Of a DNA stretch of 64,000 nucleotides, positions 54,904 through 63,654 are shown in pieces. Position 1 is the stretch's first letter; every line of letters begins with the position of its first letter. A model generated the notes under the pieces. That model was given only the letters and a program-made list of their open reading frames with translations. It was not told the DNA's origin and did no database searches. Location: positions 888,902-952,901 of the forward strand of contig JAKVOB010000001.1 in NCBI GenBank assembly GCA_022483015.1. The letters run 5' to 3'. The position numbers were made by a program, and so were the translations under genes. The stretch is from Atopobiaceae bacterium (GTDB taxonomy: Bacteria; Actinomycetota; Coriobacteriia; Coriobacteriales; Atopobiaceae).

Positions 54904-54980
54904 TGCGGGGTGGAGCAGTCTGGTAGCTCGCCGGGCTCATAACCCGGAGGTCGTTGGTTCAAATCCAGCCCCCGCGACCA
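54904..54980 (+). tRNA. initiator tRNA-fMet (CAT)
   Basis: A 77-nt tRNA with anticodon CAT (54938-54940), three G-C pairs in the anticodon stem (GGG/CCC), and no Watson-Crick pair at the end of the acceptor stem (T54904 opposite G54976), the marks of initiators. CCA is encoded (54978-54980). The sequence is close to the bacterial fMet consensus. A mobile element follows it. Confidence 0.95.
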
Positions 54981-54988
54981 AAAACATG

Positions 54989-55020
54989 CAGGTCATCGGC
55001 TTGTCCGATGGCCTGTTTTT
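54989..55020 (+). terminator. terminator of tRNA-fMet
   Basis: CAGGTCATCGG (54989-54999) pairs with CCGATGGCCTG (55005-55015; one T-G pair) followed by five T. Confidence 0.85.
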
Positions 55021-55024
55021 GTGT

Positions 55025-55311
55025 CTTGCACCAAGGCCCTTGGTGCGCGCGCACCAAATAGCGTGCGAATGGGCTTTCTATGGAGGCCAATCCGCTGCAA
55101 GTTATCCCGACGCCGCCAACGGTGCCAGGCAGTCCCAAACCGCCTCAAATCGGTCATTGGAGGACGTCCTCGACGTCCCCGCAGGTCTTCGCCAAGAGCG
55201 CGAGGATGGTCGTTCTGTGACTCCCGACCCTGCAAGATGCTAGGAGACCCTAGGCCCTTCCCCTTGTGATGCCGCGTGGGCAAGTCGCCCTAGTCTGCCC
55301 CTTGCACCAAG
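55025..55311. repeat. GCACCAA repeats and palindromes at the element's left end
   Basis: CTTGCACCAAG occurs at 55025-55035 and again at 55301-55311. The first copy is part of GCACCAAGG-C-CCTTGGTGC (55028-55046), which overlaps a perfect 18-bp palindrome TTGGTGCGCGCGCACCAA (55040-55057). The 290-bp region between has no convincing gene. It probably holds recombinase arm or Xis-binding sites, or an operator of the next gene. Confidence 0.6.
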
Positions 55312-55336
55312 TCGACGGCAGGAGATCGGAGCAAGG

Positions 55337-55576
55337 ATGACAGCGAGTCACATGGCACCAAACGGTGAGGTCGGAGTTTCGCCAAGACGCGAGCCAGAGC
55401 TCATAGGCGTTAGGGAGGCGGCGGACATCCTCAATGTCTCCTCCCGAACGGTCACGAGGCTCTGCGGCCTCAACAAGATCAAGAGCGTGAAGATCGGCTT
55501 CCAATGGCGTGTCAACCGTGCCGCCCTCATGCGTTATGCCGGCCTTGAGGAGGGCCGCGACGATGGGGAGCTGTGA
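55337..55576 (+). CDS. excisionase-like helix-turn-helix protein
   Basis: A 79-residue protein with a MerR/excisionase type winged helix: LIGVREAADILNVSSRTVTRLC, then IKSVKIGFQWRVNRAALMRY. Small proteins of this kind direct excision of integrative elements or repress their operons. It lies next to the repeat region (55025-55311), which may be its binding site. Confidence 0.75.
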   Translation: MTASHMAPNGEVGVSPRREPELIGVREAADILNVSSRTVTRLCGLNKIKSVKIGFQWRVNRAALMRYAGLEEGRDDGEL

Positions 55577-55751
55577 GGAGATCGCCTCGGGATGCGCTGC
55601 CCTGCGAGATATGAATAAGTGTCCTTGGCATGCGTTAACGTCAAAGGACCCATGGCTGGCAAACGAGGCTGAGACACCCTATCCACTGGCCCATGGGATT
55701 AGCTGCGCCTACGTGCCGGCCGTCAACCCCTCCGATTGGAGATGATCGGTC

Positions 55752-56036
55752 ATGGCTGAAACGCGCGCGGACGGATGCACGACGCTCGGTTCCTGGGGCG
55801 TGAGCATCAAGGAGTACTACACCATCGAGGAGGTGTCGCGCCTGCTCCACGTTCACGTCACGCGAATAAGGGAGCTCGCAGACCAGGCCGACGACCCGAT
55901 GCCGTTCCGCTGCTTCGAGGGTCAGAGGAGGAACGGATTCATCTACCGCGAGGACCTGGTGGCATGGCTCGACAGGCACACGGTGCTCTGGAGGGACCAG
56001 AGGGCCATGAGGCCGGGGGCCGGGGATGGCTGCTAG
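55752..56036 (+). CDS. second small helix-turn-helix (excisionase-type) protein
   Basis: A 94-residue protein with YYTIEEVSRLLHVHVTRIREL and a wing-like RRNGFIYREDLVAWLDRH, matching the DNA-binding domain of excisionase/MerR type. The C-terminus is basic. It overlaps the next gene by 11 bp. It may be a regulator or a cofactor of the replication module that follows. Confidence 0.7.
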   Translation: MAETRADGCTTLGSWGVSIKEYYTIEEVSRLLHVHVTRIRELADQADDPMPFRCFEGQRRNGFIYREDLVAWLDRHTVLWRDQRAMRPGAGDGC

Positions 56037-56358
56037 CGAGAGGCCCGACGAGTACGTGACCATCTACCGCTTCATGACGCACGAGCTCGGACTCTGGGGA
56101 GTGGACCTCCTCGTCTACGCAAGGGTGCTGAGCTTCTGCACCGACCCCGACGGCAGCTACTACGAGAGCAGGGGACGATGCGCCGACTTCCTCGGAATCA
56201 GCAGCCGACAGGCCGCGAGGTCGTTCGCAAGGTTATGTGCGTCCGGGCTCATCGACGACATCGGGATGAGGCGGCATCAGACGGGCTGCAGCACCAGGGA
56301 GTATCGCGTGAACAGGGAAGTGATCTCAGCGATTCTCCACGGCGGCCAGTGGGGGTGA
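56026..56358 (+). CDS. winged-helix protein, possible replication initiator
   Basis: A 110-residue protein: WGVDLLVYARVLSFC, RCADFLGISSRQAARSFARL and GLIDDIGMRRH form a winged helix like that of replication initiator or DnaD-like proteins. Directly after its stop lie five palindromes (56356-56456) and a DnaC-like gene, an order typical of replication modules: initiator, origin, loader. It could also be a repressor of this unit. The assignment is by context and pattern only. Confidence 0.6.
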   Translation: MAASERPDEYVTIYRFMTHELGLWGVDLLVYARVLSFCTDPDGSYYESRGRCADFLGISSRQAARSFARLCASGLIDDIGMRRHQTGCSTREYRVNREVISAILHGGQWG

Positions 56359-56456
56359 CAGGATGTCATGACACCGTGTCACCCCCCTGACAGCGTGTCA
56401 CCCCCTATGGCCGAAAGGGGTGACACCATGTCACCCCCACCCCTGACACCATGTCA
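56356..56456. repeat. array of five TGACA-N3-TGTCA palindromes, candidate element origin
   Basis: Copies at 56356-56368, 56369-56381, 56388-56400, 56421-56433 and 56444-56456, with central triplets GGA, CCG, GCG, CCA and CCA. The first two touch; most are followed by CCCC. They fill the gap between the winged-helix protein and the DnaC-like gene. The array may be a replication origin (iterons) or a multi-site operator. Confidence 0.85.
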
Positions 56457-56480
56457 CCCAAGATTAGAAAGGAGAATAGA

Positions 56481-57353
56481 GTGGATGGAGAAGAGAGGGG
56501 CAAGGGGCGCCTGGTCTTGCCATCGGAGGCAATGGCGGCGGGGCTCGTCGATCAGGAGCCCGACAAGGTTCCCTGCCCGCATTGTGGCAAGCCGCTCGAC
56601 CAACTCGGGGCGGTCTTCGCTGGTAAGGTCTACTGGGTGTCGCACGCGAGGTGCGGGTGCCAGGGCGAGCGCCGCGAGGACCGGGAGGTCGCCGATGCGG
56701 CGGAGACGGCCGAGCAGGGCGAGAAGGCGCGCCTCCTCGCAAGGGCCGGCGTCCCGGCGAAGTTCGCCGATGCCACGCTCACGGACGGTTATTGCAGGGC
56801 GTACGTCGACTCGTTCGTGAAGGACGAGACCTCGACGGGGCTCTACGTGCATGGCCCAGTGGGCACCGGCAAGACGTACAACGCCGCCGGTATCGTCAAG
56901 GCGCTCATAGCGAAGAAGTGCGACGCGATCTTCTCGTCCGCGCTGGACATCTTCACGAACATACAGGAGACCTACGACAGCGGGGCCTCGAGCAAGCGCG
57001 AGATGGAGCGCTACCTGTCCTGCGGGATCCTGGTCCTCGACGACCTGGGCAAGGAATCGAACACGCGGTGGGCCCTCACGATGCTCTTCACGCTCGTGAA
57101 CGCCCGCTATGAGCGGATGCTGCCGACCGTGATCACGTCGCAGTACACGATGGAGGGGCTCAGGCAGCGGCTCTCCCAGAAGGGCGAGCGCGAGACAGCC
57201 GAGGCCATCGTATCGAGGCTTTCGGAGACGTGTATGGACGTGACCCTTCTGGGCGGGGACAGGAGGAGGGTGGAGACCAGTCTTCCGATGAGATCTCCGA
57301 AGGTCGACAAGGAAAACTCTGGGCAAACACTGTCGGGACTTGAGGGCTTCTGA
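56481..57353 (+). CDS. DnaC/IstB-like helicase-loader ATPase
   Basis: A 290-residue AAA+ protein with an N-terminal zinc motif (CPHCGKPL, then CGC near residue 58), Walker A GPVGTGKTYNAAG (near residue 123), Walker B GILVLDDLGKE and sensor VITSQYTMEGL. It likely loads the host DnaB helicase at the element's origin. GTG 56481 is chosen for AAAGGAG upstream; an ATG at 56451 lies within the last palindrome. Confidence 0.85.
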   Translation: MDGEERGKGRLVLPSEAMAAGLVDQEPDKVPCPHCGKPLDQLGAVFAGKVYWVSHARCGCQGERREDREVADAAETAEQGEKARLLARAGVPAKFADATLTDGYCRAYVDSFVKDETSTGLYVHGPVGTGKTYNAAGIVKALIAKKCDAIFSSALDIFTNIQETYDSGASSKREMERYLSCGILVLDDLGKESNTRWALTMLFTLVNARYERMLPTVITSQYTMEGLRQRLSQKGERETAEAIVSRLSETCMDVTLLGGDRRRVETSLPMRSPKVDKENSGQTLSGLEGF

Positions 57354-57459
57354 GAGGCTATCTTGAGCACCAGAGATGCCGAGCGCGGAAGCTCTTCTAA
57401 CGGGAGGTCTGAATCCAGGGCCATCTGTCGGTGCCCTGGCAGCGCAATGAGTCCGGGCG

Positions 57460-57840
57460 CTATCCGATGTGGGTCTGTCTGCCTGGTACCGAACCGACCA
57501 CCCCTGAGTACTTCTTGCCGCACACGGAGCAGCGTGCTTCCCCGTTTCCCCGTGCTAGAGAGATGACAATCCCCGAATCCTCGTAGCAGCTGGGGCATAT
57601 GGGGCCAAAGCGTGATCCATCATCCTCGACGAGATAGTAAGAACTGCCGTCGCGCTTGAGCTCCTCGCGCCTGCGGAGCTTGGTGGACAGCTCGTCCGCT
57701 TTCTCTCTGAGCTCACGGTTCTCATCTTGGAGCTTGAATAATGAGTCGCGTGCCTCATAGAGCATCTTCTGGTCGTCTGCTGAACTGATGCCAGCGGCTA
57801 TGACGACGATGGCTCGAGCGATATCGCCAACACTAGCCAT
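57460..57840 (-). CDS. coiled-coil zinc-ribbon protein of unknown function
   Basis: A 126-residue protein on the opposite strand to the rest of the element. Residues about 28-62 form a Glu/Arg-rich coiled coil (LQDENRELREKADELSTKL), followed by a C-terminal zinc ribbon with CPSC and CSVC. I do not recognise its role. GGAAGAAGG precedes the ATG on the minus strand. Its orientation suggests a cargo gene. Confidence 0.65.
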   Translation of the reverse strand: MASVGDIARAIVVIAAGISSADDQKMLYEARDSLFKLQDENRELREKADELSTKLRRREELKRDGSSYYLVEDDGSRFGPICPSCYEDSGIVISLARGNGEARCSVCGKKYSGVVGSVPGRQTHIG

Positions 57841-58066
57841 GAGTCTGCCTTCTTCCTGTTGCCCTATGCCTCATCCTACCCCGTCCTTCGGACAGCGCGT
57901 TGTCTGTCTTCGCCAGGACAGACAACGCCGCCCACCTCGCCAGCCGTCTCCTGTGTAATCAGTCGCGGCGGGCCACGCTCGGCATCCAACATCGACTCGG
58001 TAAACAGTGGCCGCAAGGTGGCCCGTCAACGTCGAGGTGGCTCGCCGTCATCAGGGAGGTGACGGC

Positions 58067-58664
58067 GTGGCGGAGGACTTCGGCGACGATGCCGGGCAGC
58101 AGCTCTACGAGTGGACCATGCGCATCGGTCCTCTACGCGAACAGGCACCCAGGGGCGGGCTCGTCCCAGGAGCAGGTGCAGAGGGCCGTCGACAGGCTGA
58201 CGGCCTGCGCTCGAGCACGCGCGGGACATGGCGCCCGATGCGGCGGGCCACGAGGACCTCGCTCCCTGAGTACGCCAAGCTCGACCTCCATGAGTTCAAG
58301 GAGCTCGACGACTTCCCAGCCGTCCGCTCCGCGATCGACGCGCGGCTGTCCTCGGACGGGCTTCCTCCACTACTTCAATGACGACGAGCAGGGCAGGAGC
58401 TGGCTCGTCTTCCGCACGGCAGACGCACCTGGCGTCTCCGCGAGCTTCGACACGTTGGCGGGCGATGCCAGGAAGGCCGGCGAGCGCGCCGCCGCCGAGA
58501 TACGGTCGCGGGCACGATGCGACCGGGAGGCTGGTCGGGACGAGGAGCCGCTGTCAGAGCGTGCCACGCGCGTCAGGGCAGCGTCCAAGGCGCAGGAGGA
58601 GACCAAGGCACCTGAGCACGCTCCCGAGCCGCGGCACCACAAGCAGGAGACGAGGGCGAAGTGA
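58067..58664 (+). pseudogene. decayed gene upstream of virD4, possibly PcfB/DUF3801-like
   Basis: Protein-like text is spread over all three frames: DFGDDAGQQLYEWTMRIG in one, SSQEQVQRAVDRLTA in the second, LEHARDMAPDAAGHEDLAP in the third, then EYAKLDLHEFKELDDFPAV back in the first and HYFNDDEQGRSWLVFRTADA in the second to the stop. At least four shifts are needed. GGGAGGTG precedes the GTG at 58067. The place directly upstream of virD4 is where PcfB-like (DUF3801) genes usually lie; that identity is tentative. Confidence 0.65.
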
Positions 58665-60445
58665 GCAGGACCCGAGCCCTCCCCGCGCCCGTGGTCGCGC
58701 TCGCCTCCGCGGCGGCGTTCCTCGCGGGAGACCTCTACGCCGCCACGCTCTCGGCCATGCCGGGGCAGGCCGCCTCGAACCTCGAGGCGGCCGTCTCGCA
58801 GGTCCCGTCATACCTCGCCGCCAATGGCCCCGTCCCCTCGCTGGACCCCGTGCCGCTGGCGGTCGGGACGCTCGCGTGCTGCGGGGTGTGGGTCGCTTGG
58901 TCGTACCAGCTCGTCCGGGCCGGGAACTACCGCCAGGGCGAGGAGCACGGGTCGGCCAGGTGGGCCACGCCGCACGAGGCGTCGCGCTTCGCCGACCCCA
59001 CGGACCCGTACGCCAACATCATCCTCACCAGCCACGTGTCACTCGCGCTCGCGCGTGCCGACCACGATCCCCGATACGAGCGCAACCGCAACGTGCTTGT
59101 CGTCGGTGGCTCGGGCTCCGGCAAGACGAGGAGCTACGTCCTGCCGAACCTGCTGCAGGCCAACGCCTCCTACCTCGTCACCGACCCCAAGGGCACCCTG
59201 GCCGACGAGGTGGGCCCGATGCTCGTGCCCCTCGGCTACGAGGTCCGCCGCATCGACACCGTCGACTTCCGGAGGTCGGACCACTACAACCCCATCGCGT
59301 ACGTGAGGTCTCAGCAGGACGTGCTGGAGCTCGTCGACTGCCTCATCGCCAACACGAAGCGAACGAGGAACGACTCGGCCGACCCCTTCTGGGAGAACTC
59401 GGAGCGCCTGCTCTACACGGCGCTCGTGGCCTACCTCGTGGACCACTGCCAACGGGAGGACGCCAACCTCCCAGGCCTCATGACGCTGCTGTCGCTCGCC
59501 GAGGCGAGCGAGGCCGACGAGGGATTCGAGAGCCCGCTCGACCTCCTGTTCCGCGAGGTCGAGACGGGCTGCAGGTGCGTCGTCGACGAGGAGGGCGAGG
59601 AGGCAGGCGGCCGGGCCTTCTGCGGCGGTGCCGCGAGGGTCAGGTGGGTGCGGGTGGCGGAGCCGCTCACGCCCGAGCAGGACTTCGCCCTCTCCCGCTA
59701 CCGCGCCTTCAAGGCGGCCGCCGGCAAGACCCTGAAGTCGATCATCATCAGCTGCAACGCCCGGCTCAGCGCCCTCGACAGCGCGGAGCTCAGGGAGCTC
59801 CTCTCGCGGGACGACATGGGGCTCGACCGCATGGGCGAGGCGGGGCGGCGCACCGCGATCTTCGCGACGTCGTCCGACACCAACGGCACCTACTCGTTCG
59901 TCCTGGCGCTCCTCGTGTGGCAGGCGACCAACCTGCTCTGCGAGCGGGCCCTCCGCGAGCACGGCGGGAGCCTTCCCGTGCCGGTGCACCTCGTCCTCGA
60001 CGAGTTCGCCAACATCGGGCGGCTCCCAGACTTCGAGCGGACGGTCGCGGTCGTGCGCTCGCGCAACATCGGCGTCTCGGTGATCATCCAGTCAACGGCC
60101 CAGCTCAGGAGCCGCTACGGGGACGACGCCCAGACGATCGTCGACTGCTGCGACACGACGCTGTTCCTCGGGGGCAAGTCGTCCGAGACCAACAGGGGTG
60201 TCTCGGAGCAGGTCGGCAAGGAGACCGTCTCGCTCCTCGGGACGAGCGAGAGCCGCGGGGCCAACCCCAACTCGACCCAGAGCAGGAACGTCGCCGAGCG
60301 GGACCTCATCCAGTCGGCCGAGGTCGCGAAGCTCGACCGCCGCCGCGCCATCGTCCTCATCGCCGGGGCCGACCCCGTCATCGACGGGAAGTACGACCCG
60401 GCCAGGCACCCGCGCCTCCGCGAGGGGGTGGTCCCCATGAAATAG
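58661..60445 (+). CDS. VirD4/TraG-type conjugative coupling protein
   Basis: A 594-residue type IV coupling ATPase that delivers DNA to the transfer channel. Two N-terminal membrane helices (about 8-30 and 63-83), a GSARWATPHEA segment typical of TraG, Walker A VVGGSGSGKTRSYVLPNLLQ (near residue 149), LVTDPKGTLADE, and Walker B HLVLDEFANIGRLPDFE. It starts at GTG overlapping the previous frame by 4 bp. Confidence 0.92.
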   Translation: MSRTRALPAPVVALASAAAFLAGDLYAATLSAMPGQAASNLEAAVSQVPSYLAANGPVPSLDPVPLAVGTLACCGVWVAWSYQLVRAGNYRQGEEHGSARWATPHEASRFADPTDPYANIILTSHVSLALARADHDPRYERNRNVLVVGGSGSGKTRSYVLPNLLQANASYLVTDPKGTLADEVGPMLVPLGYEVRRIDTVDFRRSDHYNPIAYVRSQQDVLELVDCLIANTKRTRNDSADPFWENSERLLYTALVAYLVDHCQREDANLPGLMTLLSLAEASEADEGFESPLDLLFREVETGCRCVVDEEGEEAGGRAFCGGAARVRWVRVAEPLTPEQDFALSRYRAFKAAAGKTLKSIIISCNARLSALDSAELRELLSRDDMGLDRMGEAGRRTAIFATSSDTNGTYSFVLALLVWQATNLLCERALREHGGSLPVPVHLVLDEFANIGRLPDFERTVAVVRSRNIGVSVIIQSTAQLRSRYGDDAQTIVDCCDTTLFLGGKSSETNRGVSEQVGKETVSLLGTSESRGANPNSTQSRNVAERDLIQSAEVAKLDRRRAIVLIAGADPVIDGKYDPARHPRLREGVVPMK

Positions 60446-60773: not shown

Positions 60774-61292
60774 ATGTCGCTCAGCGTCGCGGTCCACAAG
60801 GACATAGGCGAGTACACGGAGAAGGTCGTAGGCAAGCTGAGCCTCAGGACGCTCGGCTGCGTCGCGGGCGGCCTCGCCACCTCGGTGGGGACGGCGGCCG
60901 CGTGCCACGTGCTGCTCGGCGTCGAGCCGGCCGACGCGAGCCTGCCCGTCATGGCGGCCTCGATGCCGTTCTGGCTCATGGGGTTCTGGCGCCCCCACGG
61001 GATGCGGGCCGAGAGGTTCGTGCCGCTCCTGTGGGAGCACGCGACCGGCGACGGGCTGCTCCTCTACAGGAGCAGCTGCTCGATGGCCGCGCCGCCGCAG
61101 GGGCTCGCCGCCAGGGAGTCGAGGGGATACCGGAGGAAGTCTAGGAGGAAGGGGGCGGAGCTCCATGAGCCGAGCCAAGAGGGGCAAGACGGACGAGGGG
61201 GCCGACCAGGGGCGCACGCCGCGGCCGGGAGGCAAGCCCATGGGCAGGAGGATGCGGGAGCAGGAGCGCGAGCTAAGCACTTCCGTCGCTGA
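60774..61292 (+). CDS. PrgI family conjugation membrane protein
   Basis: A 172-residue protein whose first 110 residues match PrgI (VHKDIGEYTEKVVGKLSLRTL, two membrane helices at about 25-50 and 58-75). It belongs to the channel with VirB4. The last 40 residues lie in the 128 bp overlapping virB4 in another frame and are low complexity, Gly/Arg/Ala-rich, so the functional protein may end earlier. Confidence 0.82.
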   Translation: MSLSVAVHKDIGEYTEKVVGKLSLRTLGCVAGGLATSVGTAAACHVLLGVEPADASLPVMAASMPFWLMGFWRPHGMRAERFVPLLWEHATGDGLLLYRSSCSMAAPPQGLAARESRGYRRKSRRKGAELHEPSQEGQDGRGGRPGAHAAAGRQAHGQEDAGAGARAKHFRR

Positions 61293-63654
61293 GAGGCGCC
61301 GCCATCGTCGCGCGGCCAGGGACGTCTACAACGCGATAGGGTTCGAGGCGATGTACAGGGACGGCATCTGCGAGGTGGAGGAGGGGCTCTTCTCGCAGAC
61401 GGTGTCGTTCTCCGACATCAGCTACCAGTCCGCCAGGAAGGACGCCCAGGAGGCGGTCTTCTCGGCATGGTGCCAGCTGTTCGACTCCTTCGGGGCCGAC
61501 AGCTCGGTCCAGCTCTCCGTCGTGAACACGCCGATACCGGCCGACGAGATCGGGAACAGGACCTTCTTCGACGGGTCCGACCCCATCACGGGGCGGTTCG
61601 CCGCCGAGTACAACCGGATCCTCAACGACAAGATGCGCGAGGGCGTCTCCAACCTCGTGCGCGACCGCTACCTCACGTTCTCGGTGGGCGCGGCCGACGC
61701 CGCCTCGGCCGTGCCGAGGCTCGCGCGCGTCCGCGGCGACGTCACGCAGGCGCTCCAGCGCATCCGCTGCGACGTCGGGCTCCTCGACGGGGAGGCGCGG
61801 CTGCGCGTCGTGAACGACCTGCTCCGACCCGGGCGGAGGCTCGACTTCGACTGGGGCATGGTGGGTGCCGAGACGGGCCTGAGGACCAAGGACCTCATAT
61901 GCCCGTCCTGCATCGAGACCAAGCCCGGCGGGTCGTCCACCTGCCTCAGGGTGGACGGCAAGTGGTGCCAGACGCTCGTCGTCCGCTCCTTCGGCAGCGA
62001 GCTCTCGGACCGCTGCCTCGCCGAGCTCATCGACCTCCCCATCCCGCTCGCCGTGGTCCTGCACGTGCAGGGCATGGACAAGGCGAGGGCGATCTCCTAC
62101 GTGAAGCAGCGCCTCGCGTGGATGGACAAGGAGATCATCGACGAGCAGATGAGCGCCGTGAAGCGCGGCTACGACTTCGAGATCCTGCCGTCCGAGCTCA
62201 AGTACTCGAAGGCCGAGGCCGAGGACCTCCTCGACCACCTCCAGAACAGGAACCAGCGCCTCTTCTCGTACACGGGGCTCGTCCACACCTACGCGGACAC
62301 CCCGGCCGAGCTCGACGACCAGGTCATGCAGATCATGCGTGCCGCGCGCTCCAACTCCATCGACCTCGACACGCTCGACTACCGGCAGCGAGAGGGCCTC
62401 AACTCGGTCCTCCCGCTGGGGAACAACCACGTCGAGGTGAGCCGCATGATGACGACGGCCCAGGTCGCCATCCAGATGCCGTTCGCCACGCAGGAGGTCA
62501 ACCAGGCGGGCGGCGGCTACTACGGCCAGAACAAGGAGTCCTCGAACCTCGTCATCTGCAACCGGAAGAGGCTCGCGAGCCCCATGGGCTACGTCGCCGG
62601 CAAGCCCGGCAGCGGCAAGAGCTTCTCGGTGAAGCGGGAGATAGAGAACACGATCCTCGCCTACCCCGAGGACCAGGTGATCATATTCGACCCGGCGGGC
62701 GAGTACTCGCCCGTCGTGGTGCCCAACGGGGGCACCAGCATCAGGCTCGGCCCCGACTCCGGCGCCCACCTCAACCCCTTCGACCTCGCCGACGTCGCCG
62801 AGCAGAGCCCGAGCGCCCAGCGCGCGTTCAAGATCGACGCGTTCCTGGCCCTGTCGGGCGCGACCATGGCCGAGGGCAGCCAGGGCCTCCCAGAGGCCGA
62901 CAAGTCGATCATCAGCCGCTGCGTGGAGGAGGCCTACGAGGCGTGCGACGCCCGCGCCGCGACGCCGACGCTCCAGGACCTCTACGACACGCTCCTCGCC
63001 CAGCCGGAGCGTGAGGCGCGCGACATAGCCCTCCGCTACGAGCGCTACGTGAGGGGCGCGACCTCGTTCTTCAACCACGAGAGCAACGTGGGGTTCGAGG
63101 ACAGGGTCACGAACGTGGACTTCCGCGACCTCTCGCAGAACATGCGCGTCTTCGGGATGCTCACCGCCCTCGAGAGCGTCCGAAACCGCATGTACTCGAA
63201 CTTCGAGCGCGGCATCACCACCTGGCTCTACATCGACGAGGTCCAGTCGCTCTTCGAGCATCCGTCGATCGTGAGCTACTTCTCGAAGTTCTGGGCGGAG
63301 GGTCGCAAGTTCAACCTCATCTGCACCGGCATCACCCAGAACTCCGTCTACATGCTCGAGCACGAGGAGGCCAGGAACATGGTCCTCAACTCCGACTTCG
63401 TGCTGCTCCACAAGCAGAGCTCCCTCGACCGCAAGGCATGGGTCGACCTGCTCGGGCTGTCGGAGCAGGAGTCGCGCTACATCGACGAGTCCGTGAAGCC
63501 TGGCGAGGGCCTGCTCGTCGCGGGAGGGGCACGCGTCCCCATAAAGGACGACTTCCCCAAGGGCGCGCTCTACGACCTGTTCAACACCAAGCCGGACGAG
63601 GTCGCCGAGGCCAAGCGTGCCGCCGCCTCGTCCGCGGGGAGGCGCGCGAGGTGA
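61165..63654 (+). CDS. VirB4-type conjugation ATPase
   Basis: An 829-residue ATPase of the VirB4/TraE family, the motor of the transfer channel. The N-terminal half holds the CagE/TrbE domain; the C-terminal half has Walker A VAGKPGSGKSFSVKREIENT (near residue 475), FDPAGEYSPVV, Walker B TTWLYIDEVQSLFEHP and a GITQNSVYML motif. Its start lies 128 bp inside prgI. A GTG gene overlaps its stop. Confidence 0.92.
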   Translation: MSRAKRGKTDEGADQGRTPRPGGKPMGRRMREQERELSTSVAERRRHRRAARDVYNAIGFEAMYRDGICEVEEGLFSQTVSFSDISYQSARKDAQEAVFSAWCQLFDSFGADSSVQLSVVNTPIPADEIGNRTFFDGSDPITGRFAAEYNRILNDKMREGVSNLVRDRYLTFSVGAADAASAVPRLARVRGDVTQALQRIRCDVGLLDGEARLRVVNDLLRPGRRLDFDWGMVGAETGLRTKDLICPSCIETKPGGSSTCLRVDGKWCQTLVVRSFGSELSDRCLAELIDLPIPLAVVLHVQGMDKARAISYVKQRLAWMDKEIIDEQMSAVKRGYDFEILPSELKYSKAEAEDLLDHLQNRNQRLFSYTGLVHTYADTPAELDDQVMQIMRAARSNSIDLDTLDYRQREGLNSVLPLGNNHVEVSRMMTTAQVAIQMPFATQEVNQAGGGYYGQNKESSNLVICNRKRLASPMGYVAGKPGSGKSFSVKREIENTILAYPEDQVIIFDPAGEYSPVVVPNGGTSIRLGPDSGAHLNPFDLADVAEQSPSAQRAFKIDAFLALSGATMAEGSQGLPEADKSIISRCVEEAYEACDARAATPTLQDLYDTLLAQPEREARDIALRYERYVRGATSFFNHESNVGFEDRVTNVDFRDLSQNMRVFGMLTALESVRNRMYSNFERGITTWLYIDEVQSLFEHPSIVSYFSKFWAEGRKFNLICTGITQNSVYMLEHEEARNMVLNSDFVLLHKQSSLDRKAWVDLLGLSEQESRYIDESVKPGEGLLVAGGARVPIKDDFPKGALYDLFNTKPDEVAEAKRAAASSAGRRAR

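Follow-up and report, generated by a model that had tools for sequence, protein, structure and literature searches.

A candidate lambda-like replication origin with palindromic iterons in an integrative and conjugative element of Coriobacteriia

The origin of phage lambda carries four 19-bp inverted-repeat iterons, which are bound by dimers of the initiator O, and a 40-bp A+T-rich region. It is described as lying in the middle of gene O, and gene P, which encodes a helicase loader (PMC6391071), belongs to the same operon (PMC5043065, PMC7466680). In the gp38-oriL-gp39 region of phage SPP1, the origin is reported to lie inside the initiator gene, with an AT-rich unwinding element and the phage's own helicase loader (PMC6316719). 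The RepA_N initiator of plasmid pSK41 has a DnaD-like, winged-HTH N-terminal domain that binds four boxes inside rep, and the stretch of protein encoded there is reported to be dispensable (PMC5703833). Phage-type replication genes, comprising a replisome organiser and DnaC, are described for Tn6104 and streptococcal IMEs, and dedicated theta systems for the TnGBS ICEs (PMC5704250). ICEBs1 uses its relaxase for rolling-circle replication from oriT, a mode thought to be shared by many ICEs (PMC4595007). Here, we describe a five-palindrome array that separates a winged-helix (WH) gene from a helicase-loader gene in a 64-kb window (the whole stretch of DNA analysed), and compare it with these systems. 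The coordinates of its features are collected in Table 1.

Table 1. Features of the array and its surroundings (window positions unless a locus is named).
Feature	Position	Strand	Evidence or remark
tRNA-Met gene, ICE left end (attL side)	54904..54980	+	ARAGORN
HTH_17 excisionase-type small protein	55337..55576	+	Pfam PF12728, 1.8e-10
Second HTH_17/excisionase-like small protein	55752..56036	+	PF12728, 1.4e-5, just under cut-off; TIGR01764, 2.4e-3, below cut-off
WH protein, 110 aa, predicted replication initiator	56026..56358	+	AlphaFold model and PHROGs matches
Iteron 1	56356..56368	none	TGACAGGATGTCA; its starting TGA is the stop codon of the WH gene
Iteron 2	56369..56381	none	TGACACCGTGTCA; abuts iteron 1
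Iteron 3	56388..56400	none	TGACAGCGTGTCA
Iteron 4	56421..56433	none	TGACACCATGTCA
Iteron 5	56444..56456	none	TGACACCATGTCA
A/purine-rich tract, candidate DNA-unwinding element	56457..56490	+	overlaps the loader ribosome-binding site
DnaC/DnaI-like helicase loader	56481..57353	+	phrog_50 DnaC-like helicase loader, 8.1e-47; PDB 2w58 helicase loader, 9.7e-14
VirD4/TraG coupling protein	58661..60445	+	PF02534, 5.5e-58
Putative VirB4-type conjugation ATPase	61165..63654	+	DUF87/HerA PF01935, 1.3e-6; TraC_F_IV, 8.1e-4, below cut-off; position after VirD4
MobA/VirD2-type relaxase	L006:18429-19820		PF03432, 2e-11; ~16 kb from the array

The array region belongs to a ~31-kb integrative and conjugative element (ICE) whose left end is at a tRNA-Met gene. 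The element was classed as an ICE because an integrase, a relaxase, a coupling protein and flanking repeats are present; it also encodes a T4SS ATPase that is probably VirB4, and its transfer is putative. The 3' end of the tRNA gene and the sequence beyond it (window 54936-55024) are repeated at 92% identity ~31 kb away (L007:11307-11396), where the right-end repeat adjoins a tyrosine integrase gene (PF00589, 6.3e-27). A 488-bp copy (94%) of the left end (window 54938-55425) lies just past the right end (L007:13546-14033) and is possibly what is left of an earlier or tandem element. The cargo at L007:309-7280 consists of a type IIG restriction-modification enzyme (1.4e-183), followed by GajA-like (2.5e-134) and GajB-like (1.4e-95) proteins, and the latter pair likely represents a Gabija defence system. 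The element also carries an ArdC-type antirestriction protein (L006:16529-17653; PF08401, PF18818) and a large, repeated, surface-protein-like ORF (L006:12748-16344), in which an LPKTG motif was seen by eye near the C-terminus. The same genome holds a second copy of the region, whose WH and loader genes are 98% and 97% identical, respectively, to those of the window and which also has VirD4 and VirB4 (G000:C1:1998157-1999481; L005, L009, L012; L010). In this copy, a 78-residue duplicate of the C-terminal end of the loader (87%) lies ~1.1 kb past the intact loader. Searches returned no matches to the window WH protein in the viral_contigs, plasmids and phages collections, none to the loader or the WH alignment in viral_contigs, and no relative of the ICE in plasmids, collections that may omit records very near the window genome. 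The loader search of plasmids gave 62 records, each below 60% identity.

The first-pass annotation had reported five exact matches to TGACA-N3-TGTCA at 56356-56456, two of them touching, and the five sites were found at exactly these coordinates. It had also placed the array between the WH and loader genes, which holds, and had described it as filling the gap exactly, which is true only for a loader that starts at an ATG (56451) inside site 5. From the sequence, the likelier start is the GTG at 56481, with the Shine-Dalgarno-like AGAAAGGAG at 56466-56474. Because the loader most likely starts there, the array would lie wholly between the genes and be followed by a short A/purine-rich tract. 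Over its 34 nt, this tract is 56% A+T and 76% purine, compared to 32-40% A+T in the adjoining stretches, a modest counterpart of the A+T-rich tract beside the sites in lambda. With up to one mismatch, the palindrome occurs seven times in the window against 1.23 expected and a maximum of four in shuffles (n=100). The whole genome (2,276,002 bp) has ten exact sites: five in the window array, four in the array of the second copy (C1:1999074-1999151, reverse strand) and one at window 14957, which is outside the ICE. Centre spacings of 13, 19, 33 and 23 revealed no regular helical phase among the five sites. A copy with one mismatch, TGACAGCGAGTCA, falls on the beginning of the first excisionase-like gene (55338-55350) and could be either chance or a second binding place. 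All five sites are perfect palindromes, so the array does not have the direct, non-palindromic iterons of Rep_3-type plasmid origins. The remark in the first-pass annotation that palindromic sites are unusual is correct for plasmid iterons, and the phage lambda origin does have them (PMC5043065).

The AlphaFold model of the WH protein (mean pLDDT 84.3) has a predicted recognition helix at residues 60-73, which includes R61 and R65. In PHROGs, replication initiation made up four of the six rows for this protein, all weak, with phrog_270 (replication initiation, 7.9e-4) and phrog_391 (O-like, 1.9e-3) the best; phrog_678 was matched at 0.027. The protein ends after its WH domain, and the C-terminal part of an initiator is absent; Phg_2220_C was not matched. 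RepA_N (PF06970) was not matched by the protein up to an E value of 0.1, nor by six relatives up to 0.5. Its fold is generic, the best PDB matches being mostly transcription regulators of the MarR/ArsR/CRP types. Fold comparison failed to discriminate between a regulator and an initiator, as the PDB rows also hold the initiator 4pt7 and the DnaD protein 2v79; a replisome organizer and replication protein O were among the viral rows. The loader gene lies directly 3' of the array, which is a feature of lambda O-ori-P. On the other side, the second excisionase-like gene runs 11 nt into the WH gene. WH relatives with the upstream HTH part fused were seen among P0060, P0075, P0081 and P0054, the part being HTH_17-type in P0060, and one protein joins the WH directly to loader sequence. 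These fusions hint that the neighbouring genes may act together.

A three-sequence WH profile matched 69 of the 396 genomes of the class, and a broader profile matched 35 of the 138 genomes in the family of G120. Among the named sources of WH relatives are Collinsella aerofaciens, Slackia and Ellagibacter. WH and loader matches on one strand and less than 700 bp apart were found in 69 of 79 sources; those left out were L065, L124, L127, L128, L129 and L138-L141, which have no WH or no loader match, and L075, which consists of overlapping pieces. The layout of WH gene, 13-bp palindromes, A-rich tract and DnaC/DnaI-like loader recurs in the resulting 69 Coriobacteriia loci. The first-pass annotation had made its reading depend on conservation of the array beside homologous gene pairs in other Coriobacteriia elements, and such conservation is what these loci display. 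Downstream of the loader, 61 of them have both VirD4 and VirB4 matches. Neither was matched in seven, which are five short stretches (4.3-7.9 kb) plus L130 and L131, where window-type VirD4/VirB4 went unmatched in the 13 kb fetched. TGACANNNTGTCACCC occurs in 7 of 60 genomes, and single sites may be chance because the 12-14 kb fetched from two of the seven (G035 and G057) gave no WH match. In L065/L037 (genome G313), the WH gene and an array with two exact sites are kept, and the loader, VirD4 and VirB4 were unmatched in 13.3 kb. The loader match of L132 (the L035 region; an Atopobiaceae MAG copy, JAKVON010000016.1) is split over two frames, reflecting sequencing error or decay. L124, L127, L129, L140 and L141 have VirD4/VirB4 matches and larger WH-initiator-like frames (356-484 aa), with the window's loader unmatched; L124 has CGACG-type sites, and L140 has repeated 'NVT' stretches.

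Perfect 5+3+5 palindromes numbered 159 in the 18,323 nt of gap between the WH and loader matches, compared to 18.6 in shuffles. Control stretches of equal length beginning at the WH start, which may run into arrays, contained 34. Loader-coding stretches also contained 34, after 189 palindromes in L104, taken for masked-base pairs, were subtracted from 223. Scores were above all 40 shuffles in 27 of the 32 distinct helix/half-site groups and not in the other five (representatives L067, L081, L094, L105 and L122); L131 was above its shuffles, yet not above its own loader-coding control. A spacer of 2 or 4 in place of 3 gave scores of only 2-6. Of the 69 loci, 48 have the array within the WH frame and 16 have it past the stop codon, and in five it is weak. 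Because it is found both inside the frame and after the stop, it is the DNA rather than the protein reading frame that is conserved. These loci and lambda O-ori-P have in common several inverted-repeat sites within or next to the initiator gene; here, the WH protein is predicted to bind them. Across 30 groups, the 40 nt that follow the last site had an A+T content of 0.57-0.63 and a purine content of 0.68-0.74, against 0.31-0.41 and 0.49-0.62, respectively, in the other bins. By eye, the tract of the relatives often reads CACCC[A/G]ATAAGAAAGG, directly after the last site. In several relatives the likely ribosome-binding site, again by eye, is further downstream, suggesting that the tract is more than a ribosome-binding site.

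Half-sites vary across the loci and include TGACA, TGACG, GGACA, TGAAG, TGCCA, TGCAA and others. At position 7 of the recognition helix (R65 in the window), Arg accompanies C4 of the half-site in 50 loci and a non-Arg residue accompanies A4 in ten, a perfect agreement over the 60 loci scored. The co-variation was followed on a tree of loader proteins from 66 loci, which omits L085, L095 and L104 (partial or masked); the count omits the weak-array loci L081, L094, L097, L107, L121 and L122. Helix position 7 and half-site position 4 each change four times on this tree, and random placement of three, four or five changes reproduced the pattern in 0 of 200,000 trials each. The starred-branch sign test had two pairs (p 0.5), too few independent changes to reach significance. 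Arg at helix position 6, carried by five loci, agreed with G1 of the half-site in 60/60 loci with two changes, and random placement reproduced this in 588 of 200,000 trials with two changes and 203 with three. Helix position 3 (R61 in the window) is Arg in all 32 listed helix/half-site pairs and in 90% or more of a 70-row alignment, and G2 is retained throughout the TG/GG half-site classes. In the AlphaFold model, the residues at positions 3, 6 and 7 lie in helix 60-73, and they correspond to the DNA-reading residues of CRP. A relation between half-site position 5 (A/G) and helix position 4 (Gln or Ser/Thr) was promising at first and was rejected on the L103, L087 and L130 types, in which Ser goes with TGACA, Gln with TGACG and Thr with GGACA, respectively. 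For the later loci (L124, L127-L129, L140, L141 and L172-L175), half-sites were read without shuffle comparison. The position-7 rule holds in L124 and L172-L174 and is ambiguous in L127, L128, L140 and L141, and L129 has Asp with TGAGG, which is neither C nor A at position 4. In L175, read by eye, Thr replaces Arg at helix position 3 and the sites are GTACC, with T for G at half-site position 2.

L130 encodes a related WH protein with four GGACA-N3-TGTCC sites, a Phg_2220_C domain (PF09524, 2.5e-24), also carried by L131, and a match to phrog_428 (replication initiation, 1.5e-38), and a loader follows. This protein had 416 matches to phage records, mostly of partial length, with ten covering at least 80%. 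Among the 25 matches listed, several hit the C-terminal domain only, and the names included replication initiation protein, replisome organizer and O family protein. Of eight named phage genes, some of them near relatives of each other, five have palindrome arrays that exceed all 40 shuffles; Bacteroides phage B40-8 has three perfect GGTGAAAATCACC. The other three did not exceed shuffles: L178, which is a B40-8 relative with weaker copies; Streptococcus phage Javan73, where the genes run in the order helicase, initiator, loader; and Brochothrix phage NF5, in which the match falls outside the WH part.

We consider that the array is probably the replication origin of the ICE, with predicted binding, unwinding and replication of the lambda O-ori-P type. 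Dimers of the adjacent WH protein would bind the five palindromes, with G2 of TGACA read by R61 and the G opposite C4 by R65. The bound protein would open the neighbouring A-rich tract, the loader would be recruited and place the host helicase, and the excised circle would replicate theta-type. This scheme builds on the array and its position, the conservation of the DNA, the helix co-variation, the A-rich tract, the loader family and the ICE context. An initiator-origin-loader module in a conjugative element, as proposed in the first-pass annotation, is supported by arrays conserved beside homologous gene pairs, by the co-variation of palindrome type with the WH helix and by the ICE genes; a switch for the loader, its alternative, is less likely. 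Several observations speak against an origin. The 110-aa WH protein has no C-terminal domain, which leaves recruitment of the loader by the WH unexplained; the window tract is short and overlaps the ribosome-binding site of the loader; and L065 has a WH and an array with no loader match. The generic fold, the weak PHROGs matches, the groups and phage genes whose arrays do not exceed their shuffles or controls, and the small number of independent changes also count against it. Relaxase-driven rolling-circle replication is possible instead, since the ICE also encodes a relaxase.

The WH fold is like that of MarR/ArsR/CRP regulators and the sites are directly upstream of the loader, and the array might thus be an operator on whose five sites a WH repressor or activator controls the loader and the downstream conjugation genes, with no origin involved. 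Helix co-variation favours binding and is silent on its purpose. We regard an operator as unlikely, because 48/69 loci carry the array within the WH frame, an odd location for one, the genome has a single exact site beyond the two arrays, and the A-rich tract, the helicase-loader partner and the phage initiator relatives would go unexplained. No sigma-70-like promoter was found in 54950-58700, a weak test that covers the sigma-70-like type only. Initiators of iteron replicons commonly repress themselves through their origin sites, and the sites here do precede the loader gene. An origin with such a dual role, in which the initiator acts on these sites to repress its own operon or the loader and thereby ties copy number to expression, is nonetheless improbable, as the sites are downstream, not upstream, of the WH gene. 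ICEs carry partition and transfer sites, and palindromes occur in these. That the WH binds a partition (centromere-like) or transfer (oriT/relaxosome) site here is very improbable, given that the relaxase gene is ~16 kb off, that 69 of the 79 sources have a helicase-loader match next, and that neither VirD4 nor VirB4 of the window type was matched in the 13 kb fetched for L130 and L131.

Returning to the lambda-like origin, we tentatively propose that an ICE family spread across Coriobacteriia captured a phage-type origin, that its initiator was stripped to a bare 110-aa WH in some lineages, and that single residues of the recognition helix (window 61, 64 and 65) rewrite the iterons in step, giving mutually blind origins. 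The idea of mutually blind origin types is weakened because both copies in the genome share one half-site type. If the family reading is true, unrelated ICEs could replicate side by side in one cell. The kind of origin is known, and the compact, widespread ICE version with switching specificity is the new part; a description of this Coriobacteriia origin was not found in the literature searched, in which subscription journals were thinly covered. A dedicated lambda-like origin would make the Coriobacteriia elements analysed here phage-like, self-copying replicons after excision. It would also offer a compact origin for genetic tools in the class, including its gut genera, and a natural set of initiator/iteron pairs for direct tests of base reading by WH proteins.

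Lambda O has a C-terminal part beyond its DNA-binding domain. The window locus has the same order as lambda O-ori-P, namely initiator, palindromic iterons, A+T-rich tract and loader. In contrast to lambda, its sites are 13 bp long and lie past the stop codon of a 110-aa protein with no C-terminal part, its tract is short, its loader is of the DnaC/DnaI type, sequence homology to O is not clear, and it is located in an ICE. SPP1 is similar in having an origin at the initiator gene together with a loader, but it has direct repeats. Among phage initiators with Phg_2220_C, L130 carries the same kind of array, whereas the window protein lacks this C-terminal domain. The window also differs from pSK41 in having no RepA_N match; pSK41 Rep contacts primase, and the account of it cited here describes no neighbouring loader (PMC5703833). 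Tn6104, the streptococcal IMEs and TnGBS are likewise integrative elements with their own replication genes, whose origin anatomy is not described in the source cited (PMC5704250). Compared to these, the Coriobacteriia elements display an array, a tract, co-variation in specificity and conjugation genes of their own.
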